Assembly (NCBI GenBank): GCA_945787595.1
Contig: CALZJV010000081.1
Span: 2,971-27,431, forward strand
From: an uncultured Desulfobacterales bacterium
Lineage (GTDB): Bacteria > Desulfobacterota > Desulfobacteria > Desulfobacterales > JAFDCJ01
Direction: 5' to 3'
DNA: 24,461 nucleotides
Numbering within the stretch: position 1 is the first letter of the stretch; the number at the start of each line of letters is the position of its first letter. Both the position numbers and the translations under genes were made by a program. The notes below the pieces were generated by a model, which had not been told where the DNA came from, made no database searches, and saw only the letters and a program-made list of their open reading frames with translations. Of the stretch, positions 11,464-12,684 are shown in pieces.

Positions 11464-12684
11464 ATGATGACCATTGACATTCCAACGTGGGTAAATCTGG
11501 CGGCTTTTTTTGGCGGGGGTCTGGCTATGGGCCTCGGTGCCCTGGGCGCCGCAATTGGTGAAGGATATACGGCCGGCCAGGCCAACTTGGCTCTGTCGCA
11601 AAATCCTGAATCTTCCGGTGATATTATAAAAACAATGCTGGTGGGGCAGGCCGTGGCGGAGTCCGCCGCTATCTTTGCCCTGGTGGTTGCTATCTTGCTG
11701 CTTTTTTTAAAAGTCCCCAACCCCAGCCTTACCAAGGCGGCCGCCCTTGCCGGGGCCAGCCTGAGTATGGGGCTGGGGGCCATCGGATCAGGCATAGGAT
11801 CCGGGATGCCCGGCGGTAAGGCCTGCGCGGGGATTGCCGCCAAACCCGAGTTGAGCGGCCGTCTGACAATGAATATGCTCATCGGGTCAGCCGTATGCCA
11901 AACCCCTGCGATTTTAGCGATGATTATAGCTTTGATGCTGATGTTCATCGATTTTGGCAGCGATCCCCTGAAAATCGCGGCCCTTGGCAGCGCAGGCCTC
12001 GCGATGGGCTTGGGGGCGATCGGTTCTGGTATCGGCTCTGGATATCCCGGCGGCGAGGCCTGTGTGGGGATCGCCAGGCAACCGGAGATGTCGGTGGGAT
12101 TAACCACCAACATGCTCATCGGATCGGCCGTATGTCAGACACCGGCCATATTTGCCATGGTCGTCGCCCTGATACTGGTGTTTATGGATTTTAGCGGTGC
12201 GCCGCTTTATCCCAAATGGGCAGCCTTCTTGGGTGCCGGCATCAGTACCGGATTGGCGGCTATCGGTTCGGGAATAGGTGGAGGAATGGTTGCGGGCAGC
12301 AGCTGCGAGGGCATCGCCAGACAACCGGAAACCGTAGGCACTGTTACCACTACCATGCTGGTGGGTCAGGCGGTATCCCAGACGCCTGCCATTTTCGGAT
12401 TGTTGGTCAGTTTTATTCTGATGTTCAAGGCGTTTCCGGAGTCTACCGCTTTAAGTGCCTCTATGGCGCTGGTGGGCGCCGGCGTCAGTATGGGCTTTGG
12501 AGGCATCGGTCCTGGGATTGGCAACGGCATGGTCGCCGAAAGTGCCGTGCGATGGGTGGCGCGCAACATGGAACACGCCGGTGACTTGGTGCGAACGATG
12601 CTGGTGGCACAGGCTGTTTCTCAATCCACGGCTATTTATGCCATGGTGGTGAGCTTGGTCCTTATCTTTGTAGTTCAAATTTAA
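11464..12684 (+). CDS. Five-hairpin fused ATP synthase subunit c with one ion-binding carboxylate
   Basis: A 406-residue protein made of five F-type c subunits in tandem (about residues 8-82, 90-161, 170-240, 250-321, 332-403), hence ten membrane helices. Each hairpin keeps the Gly-rich first helix, and most keep the F-type polar loop (SQNPE, AKPE, RQPE, RQPE; RNME in the fifth). Only hairpin 1 has the ion-binding Glu (E66 in AVAES), with a second Glu in helix 1 (E33). Hairpins 2-5 have Gln instead (Q146, Q225, Q306, Q387), and helix-1 residues S113, S192, G273 and N354. Hairpins 2 and 3 are most alike. The frame is clean throughout. The start abuts the atpB stop and has no strong Shine-Dalgarno sequence, unlike the single c that follows, suggesting lower output. 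It probably joins the single c in one rotor. Confidence 0.88.

Follow-up and report, generated by a model that had tools for sequence, protein, structure and literature searches.

Ion sites per rotor turn fix the energy price of ATP, and F-type c subunits as a rule carry one carboxylate in helix 2 of every hairpin. What is to be made of an F-type c subunit that breaks this rule in four of its five hairpins? Such a protein, here called c5, is encoded in the window that we analysed, a stretch of 24,461 nucleotides from an uncultured Desulfobacterales bacterium; E66 is its only carboxylate of this kind and hairpins 2-5 carry Gln instead. We conclude that c5 is a real, conserved rotor subunit, probably of a Na+-driven ATP synthase. 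Our whole reading, which we consider likely to be right, places c5 in the hybrid c-ring of a second, Na+-type Fo that shares the cell's F1 with a conventional Fo.

A single frame with five c hairpins

The gene and the codons of its site residues are located as follows.

11464..12684, + strand, five-hairpin c subunit (c5), single open frame of 406 aa with an ATG start
11659-11661, + strand, E66 of hairpin 1
11899-11901, + strand, Q146 of hairpin 2
12136-12138, + strand, Q225 of hairpin 3
12379-12381, + strand, Q306 of hairpin 4
12622-12624, + strand, Q387 of hairpin 5

The uninterrupted frame with five c hairpins that had been proposed from the sequence was borne out by five PF00137 stretches (Pfam, E 2.5e-71) and by an AlphaFold model with five helical hairpins (mean pLDDT 93.1, pTM 0.91), and the proposed repeat pitch of 79-81 residues agrees with the distances of 80, 79, 81 and 81 found between the site residues. 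The pattern of one Glu followed by four Gln is equally firm, each of the five residues being invariant in 33/33 sequences of an alignment of five-hairpin length, the window's own c5 counted in.

F-type descent had also been claimed, and c5 exceeds the cut-offs of the F-type c models, scoring 194 bits (summed over five hairpins) against 43.95 for TIGR01260. As a V-type proteolipid (subunit K) it stays below the cut-offs, with 118/211 bits for PRK06271 and 112/188 bits for PRK14893. The closest protein of solved structure is the two-hairpin c1 of the A. woodii F-type enzyme, both by sequence (E 9.1e-23) and by Foldseek with the predicted structure of c5 (E 2.5e-6, rmsd 1.7).

The five hairpins of c5 are only 50-66% identical to one another in DNA, so that collapse or expansion of near-identical repeats in the assembly is not plausible. 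Compared with its nearest relative, a Desulfobacterales MAG (L001, 96% in the best segment), c5 shows dN of 0.012-0.039 and dS of 0.22-0.29 per hairpin and a dN/dS of about 0.1 over the whole gene. Judged against this one relative alone, purifying selection seems to act on each of the five hairpins.

The Fo operon and its surroundings

The gene for c5 stands in an operon on the + strand with the order AtpZ-AtpI-a-c5-c1-b'-b, which makes up a whole Fo.

10132..10386, + strand, AtpZ / ATPase gene1, small membrane accessory protein (PF09527, E 5e-14)
10390..10767, + strand, AtpI, c-ring assembly factor (PF03899, E 1.2e-9)
10789..11463, + strand, Fo subunit a, conserved Arg present (ISFRLFGNIMGG) (PF00119, E 1.3e-49)
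12690..12697, + strand, Shine-Dalgarno-like site AAAGGAGA for c1 (predicted pairing -8.7 kcal/mol)
12702..12950, + strand, one-hairpin c subunit (c1), 82 aa (PF00137, E 6.2e-20)
13128..13583, + strand, Fo subunit b' (PF00430, E 1.3e-15)
13580..14188, + strand, Fo subunit b (PF00430, E 2e-11)

The intergenic gaps between a and c5 and between c5 and c1 measure 0 and 17 bases, respectively. A spacer of 177 bases (12951-13127) separates c1 from b' and may allow the rotor and stalk genes to be expressed independently. No F1 genes were found in the 24 kb window by Pfam family search and, going by its genes, the operon would encode an unexpected surplus Fo of the Na+ type. The original prediction was thus supported in part: it had recognised the silent hairpins of c5 but missed the downstream c1, the Na+ signature and the Fo without F1.

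The Fo of an N-ATPase was considered, but subunit a and the gene order speak against it. The window's subunit a scores 131/302 bits on TIGR03306, below the cut-off, and upstream of a there is no beta/epsilon; AtpZ, AtpI and cytidylate-kinase-like genes are found there instead. The model of the alternate F1F0 c (TIGR03322, cut-off 130.85) gives a divided picture, with 180.6 bits for c5, again a sum of five hairpins, and 64.2 bits for c1.

Three cytidylate-kinase-like genes (PF13189) lie on both sides of the Fo operon, at 8302-8946 (- strand), 9082-9696 (- strand) and 14496-15188 (+ strand), and such genes also occur near the hybrid Fo in several related loci. Diverged direct repeats at 21437-21852 and 23965-24273 (73-97% over 39-100 bases) flank a gene at 21890-23896 that is chemoreceptor-like by look alone. 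Further intergenic repeats, at 6772-6833, 16001-16062 and 17414-17447, consist of units such as ATTGACTATTGA and TTGAAGATTTGTGGA in direct and inverted orientation and resemble small mobile or REP-type elements.

The neighbouring one-hairpin c subunit

The ligands of c1 (E32, V63, E65, S66, T67 and Y70) form a complete two-carboxylate Na+ motif (Q/E32, V63, E65, S66, T67, Y70), and the best solved relatives of the protein are c1 and c2 of A. woodii. In the F. nucleatum ring, Na+ is bound by Glu32, Val63, Glu65, Ser66, Thr67 and Tyr70, where Glu32 was concluded to stay protonated throughout (PMC3692424). A one-hairpin c adjoins the multi-hairpin c in 82 of the loci that we collected, with the signature EVESTY in 78 and QVESTY in 4; Glu32 is accordingly present in 78/82, the others having Gln32 as in I. 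tartaricus. The only loci without a neighbouring one-hairpin c, L037 and L106, both end at contig ends. In 35/40 loci tabulated, the polar loop of c1 reads R/K-N-P.

At the same six places (32/63/65/66/67/70), hairpin 1 of c5 has E, V, E, S, A and F, and its own Na+ affinity is uncertain because Ala68 and Phe71 replace the Thr and Tyr of the motif. Hairpins 2-5 have S, S, G and N at place 32 and Q at place 65, which leaves these silent hairpins without both carboxylates of the site.

The position of an ordinary c gene directly 3' of c5 makes a mixed ring most likely, and the predicted strength of the ribosome-binding sites bears on the proportions. In the window, pairing of the start site with the anti-Shine-Dalgarno is predicted at -8.7 kcal/mol for c1 versus -5.4 kcal/mol for c5, whose ATG is placed at the atpB stop. 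Among 78 locus pairs, the predicted pairing is stronger for c1 than for the multi-hairpin c (cN) in 71, and the medians over all c1 and cN are -10.3 and -4.8 kcal/mol (Wilcoxon p 6e-12), with the reservations that starts were picked by rule, a few of them doubtful (L013, L076), and that this comparison is blind to translational coupling of cN to atpB, by which cN may be translated. The stronger predicted site of c1 is in keeping with a ring in which c1 subunits are many and cN few.

Multi-hairpin c subunits in related genomes

A protein search gave 2306 matches among 7999 candidates scored. The best 120 of these were of four-, five- and six-hairpin size (55, 50 and 15), the size class being taken from length and some of the matches being pieces; none of the best 120 exceeded 490 aa, though proteins of up to 1.75 times the query length were eligible. 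Relatives occur at 40 loci in other genomes, and two of these loci belong to chromosome records (CP070652.1, CP070768.1). The record titles name Desulfobacterales, Desulfobacteraceae, Desulfococcaceae, Desulfarculaceae, Desulfatitalea, Desulfatibacillum, Deltaproteobacteria, Olavius symbionts and, in one case, Proteobacteria. The holders include the cultured strains Desulfatitalea alkaliphila M08but (L004), whose gene has five hairpins with four of them silent, and Desulfatibacillum alkenivorans DSM 16219 (L024), with four hairpins of which two are silent. Of 395 Desulfobacterota genomes drawn from the phylum of D. alkenivorans, at least 43 hold a multi-hairpin c (counted by eye), namely G011 and 42 others whose loci were fetched.

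In total, 82 multi-hairpin genes were collected, no two of them identical, of which four (L035, L037, L038, L106) were left out as cut by contig ends. The remaining 78 complete genes, coming from separate loci, encode two (2 genes), three (9), four (40), five (19) or six (8) hairpins. This rules out an assembly artifact, one of the outcomes that would have overturned the original prediction, and no frameshift, another such outcome, was seen among the homologs compared. The count of five hairpins stands for the window, but the variation from 2 to 6 among relatives had been missed. Hairpin 1 carries Glu in 78/78 complete genes. As for the expectation that Gln is conserved in the later hairpins of homologs, it holds for the inner ones, with 176/178 (the Glu exceptions are in L085 and L087), but fails for the last hairpin, where Gln is found in 54/78 and Glu in 24/78. 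Five-hairpin genes are split in this respect: 7 of 19 end in an active hairpin, the other 12, with the window's c5, in one that carries Gln; in L109, a two-hairpin form, both sites are active.

In a tree of hairpins, the nearest neighbour from another locus belongs to the same position class for 82/82 first, 180/182 inner, 53/58 last-Gln and 23/24 last-Glu hairpins, as well as for 82/84 single and 32/33 conventional ones, two of the 'single' hairpins being silent stubs at contig ends (L110, L111). Since position classes are held across loci, the hairpin positions are old and distinct, not recent copies.

Seven five-hairpin genes (L017 and L069-L074) have an active last hairpin (EVESTY) with the c1 signature and look as if c1 had been fused onto a four-hairpin gene. 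One MAG (G013, MO_071.B1; L002, L039) has two hybrid Fo operons, one for a c of five hairpins and one for a c of four. Besides a conventional Fo it contains V/A-like pieces, among them a c/K frame of 171 aa with two hairpins; this is either unusual richness or a mixed bin.

One F1 and a surplus of Fo

Fourteen whole genomes were taken up from the 40 relative loci. Each has one F1 beta over the cut-off, one delta and one full gamma, G014 having in addition a gamma fragment of 26 positions at a contig end. Subunit a is present more than once in 12/14, with two copies in 11 genomes and three in G013; G004 and G005 have one copy and show the hybrid Fo alone, which could mean that not every holder has two Fo, or that these two assemblies are incomplete. 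In the 42 holders drawn from the phylum, the number of a genes exceeds that of gamma by one in 39 and by two in one (G335), and there is no surplus in two (G258, G214), when two gamma fragments of G119 are taken as one gene; the raw counts are 38, one and three, i.e. a surplus in 39/42 as against 40/42. As controls, 60 genomes of the same phylum that lack a strong multi-hairpin match were picked by hand; a outnumbers gamma in four of them (G016, G093, G096, G099) and is outnumbered by it in three (G019, G055, G081). The difference between 40/42 and 4/60 has a p of about 3e-21 in a Fisher test that ignores kinship. The surplus of a over gamma suggests that one F1 may serve two motors in these relatives, and the window's own genome would be expected to resemble theirs. 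Several holders have a second, weaker gamma together with an a, which is probably an N-ATPase.

The other Fo of the holders is an a-c pair, often with AtpZ. We examined 33 conventional c subunits from other loci, 32 from holders and one (L112, G211) from a genome without a strong multi-hairpin match. Their signature is Q-[ML]-E-S-L-Y in 29, MLESLY in 2, MMESLY in 1 (L112) and MLEALY in 1; Leu stands at position 67 in all 33, and the Na+ set EVESTY/QVESTY occurs in none. Because Thr67 is absent throughout, the conventional Fo is predicted to use H+.

The relation of the hybrid Fo to F1 differs between loci. The 42 phylum-drawn holders supplied 43 loci, and in 14 of these the hybrid operon continues directly into F1 genes (delta in 14/14, alpha in 12/14 and gamma where the stretch is long enough), although the fused c is cut by the contig end in two of these, L110 and L111; no such contiguity was found among the 40 loci collected first. 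In some lineages, then, the gene for the multi-hairpin c belongs to a genuine F1Fo operon. A separate b' and b accompany the main F1 of the window's kin in 7/8 F1 regions (L061-L068, not L062), and the b of the hybrid Fo is 22-28% identical to the b of the F1 locus in 7/7 genomes compared. In L061 (G002, a single-contig genome), a match to F1 gamma around 6911-7813 contains an internal stop (1 TAA), which may be a sequencing error or a genuine break.

A possible mechanism

One copy of c5, or very few, would enter each ring, and the remaining places would be taken by c1, which the next gene would supply in greater quantity. Every turn would then carry one Na+ per c1 and one per c5, and hairpins 2-5 of c5 would pass the stator without an ion because Gln replaces the ion-binding Glu. 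The lower ion/ATP ratio stated in the original prediction follows naturally from the silent hairpins, as the motor would move fewer ions per ATP than one whose ring had the same size but consisted solely of c1. Eleven hairpins were known for the Na+ F-type rings that had been characterised by 2013 (PMC3692424); by arithmetic, a ring of 11 hairpins with one c5 would have seven sites and use 2.33 Na+ per ATP. At so low a ratio the motor would be best suited to pumping Na+ at the expense of ATP, or to making ATP where the sodium-motive force is high. This hybrid Fo and a conventional one from another locus, probably driven by H+, would most likely both be served by the one F1 of the cell.

The width of the silent sector raises a difficulty. 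For an 11-ring with one fused c of 2 to 6 hairpins, one of them active, the number of sites per turn falls from 10 through 9, 8 and 7 to 6, the ratio falls from 3.33 to 2.00 Na+ per ATP and the silent arc widens from 33 to 164 degrees. The four contiguous silent hairpins of c5 span 131 degrees, more than one 120-degree ATP step, so that the motor could profit from the gear ratio in a simple way only if elastic parts average over a turn. From five hairpins up, a rigid motor would gain nothing, since the limiting force would still be dictated by the dense sector, and in the dead sector ATP would be spent or demanded without ions. Elastic averaging, a larger ring, several fused subunits or use of the dead sector by a parked, leak-free Fo would each offer a way out. 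The hairpin numbers of 2-6 show no evident relation to a fixed ring size.

Extended to the phylum, the reading becomes tentative: it is possible, though we would stop short of calling it probable, that many Desulfobacterota run one F1 on two exchangeable motors, one with an all-active, probably H+-driven ring and one with a Na+ ring that has a contiguous silent sector of one to five hairpins, differing in width among lineages. If so, the choice of Fo on F1 would change ion and gear, proton- and sodium-motive force would be exchanged through ATP, and the silent sector may let a free Fo park without leak. Hairpin numbers of 2, 3, 4, 5 and 6 form a graded series, with one or two active sites in most cases and operons that are otherwise alike; with it one can test how low the ion/ATP ratio can go and whether a rotary motor can get past a dead sector wider than one catalytic step.

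Other explanations

With Glu missing from four of its five hairpins, c5 could at first sight be taken for a decayed or mis-assembled duplicate without function. We regard this as next to impossible in view of the dN/dS of about 0.1 against L001, low in every hairpin, the Gln that is invariant in 33/33 sequences, and the hairpins that stay in their position class across loci from many separate assemblies. A motor that is H+-coupled in vivo, with a full Na+ ligand set that is merely inherited, is unlikely. A predicted motif is no proof of the ion, hairpin 1 of c5 lacks Thr67 and Tyr70, and a pronounced H+ selectivity has been discussed for the M. acetivorans ring (PMC3692424); yet the ligand set is complete in all 82 c1 next to a multi-hairpin c, and the enzymes of A. 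woodii and C. aceticum are described as Na+-dependent (PMC7793690, PMC7911925).

A free Fo would need protection against leak. It is rather unlikely that the surplus Fo works without any F1, as a gated Na+ path or with its silent arc parked at subunit a to stop the leak. The absence of F1 beside the window's operon and the excess of a over gamma in 40/42 holders (39 raw) versus 4/60 controls would fit such a role; against it stand the like operon contiguous with F1 in 14 relatives, the detectable resemblance that its b keeps to the b of the F1 locus (7/7 genomes, 22-28%) and the R/K-N-P loop of c1 in 35/40 tabulated loci. Equally to be weighed is a ring of the multi-hairpin c alone, with c1 in another ring or as a minor component. 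Three c5, for example, would give 15 hairpins with three sites, one per 120-degree step, an extreme low-ratio pump that, by matching the threefold symmetry of F1, would escape the broad dead sector of 131 degrees that one c5 makes in an 11-ring, and the M. kandleri ring has been deduced to consist of one 13-hairpin protein (PMC2359735). We nevertheless find this quite improbable, given that c1 is kept in 82 loci and has the stronger predicted ribosome-binding site in 71/78, that hairpin numbers of 2, 3, 4, 5 and 6 would force very different ring sizes, and that A. woodii, the characterised parallel, has a mixed ring (4bem). The preferred reading thus remains a hybrid ring of c1 and c5 on a shared F1.

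Comparison with known systems

The original prediction gave a fair list of known fused c subunits, namely the two-hairpin forms of V-ATPases and A. woodii and the three- and thirteen-hairpin forms of methanogens. The methanogen A-type K subunits, with three hairpins in M. jannaschii and 13 in M. kandleri, resemble c5 in having more than two hairpins per chain, but they belong to A/V-type enzymes, and in M. kandleri the full Na+ site is described as kept in all 13 hairpins (PMC2359735). The proteolipids of V-ATPases (c, c' and c'', NtpK of E. hirae) share fused hairpins, silent sites and a similar fold with c5; unlike c5, which is of F-type descent, they descend from the V-type and have two hairpins as a rule. 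The V-ATPase c has its active site in the second hairpin. The F. nucleatum c11 ring is the same as the window's c1 at the six ligand positions compared, but it is made of a single kind of c with no fused subunit, in contrast to c5 plus c1. The N-ATPase is, like the hybrid Fo, a second rotary ATPase, often of the Na+ type, beside a normal one, but has its own F1 and a different gene order.

A surplus Fo has been reported before. In Desulfococcus oleovorans, Koumandou and Kossida (2014, PMC4154653) described an extra 'ectopic ATPF0 complement', a-c-b'-b without F1, whose a and c group with Thermotogae and which was taken as a duplication or transfer in one species; the main text of that paper uses 'hairpin' 0 times and 'sodium' 0 times. 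Our guess, by analogy, is that this second Fo might be the same operon as the window's. A surplus Fo, left open in 2014 for one deltaproteobacterium, proves widespread, with at least a tenth of the sampled Desulfobacterota genomes (at least 43/395) as holders. In the literature searched, which mostly excludes subscription papers, we found neither a description of an F-type c with more than two hairpins nor biochemical work on any multi-hairpin F-type member.

The true parallel is the hybrid rotor of A. woodii and C. aceticum. The A. woodii ring (PDB 4bem) holds nine one-hairpin chains and one two-hairpin chain, the latter (c1) with Glu in hairpin 1 and Gln in hairpin 2 by alignment, and its enzyme is reported to be Na+-dependent (PMC7793690); likewise, C. 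aceticum has a fused c with Glu then Gln and a Na+-dependent ATPase (PMC7911925). What c5 shares with these systems is the fusion of F-type hairpins in which a first one with Glu is followed by one with Gln; its operon likewise encodes a one-hairpin c that has the Na+ ligands, and the hosts are anaerobes. The differences concern the organisation as well as the rotor. In C. aceticum, F1 is reported in the same operon (PMC7911925), whereas the window's Fo stands without it, though 14 relatives do show the combination; unlike the single operon of the A. woodii type, the window's relatives have a conventional Fo and a single F1 besides the hybrid Fo. Position 32 is Gln in the A. woodii/C. aceticum system and Glu in 78/82 of the c1 considered here. 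Finally, the fused c of A. woodii has two hairpins, compared with 3-6 in 76/78 complete relatives and five in the window, and one silent hairpin, compared with four in a row: c5 extends the A. woodii-type design from one silent hairpin to four.
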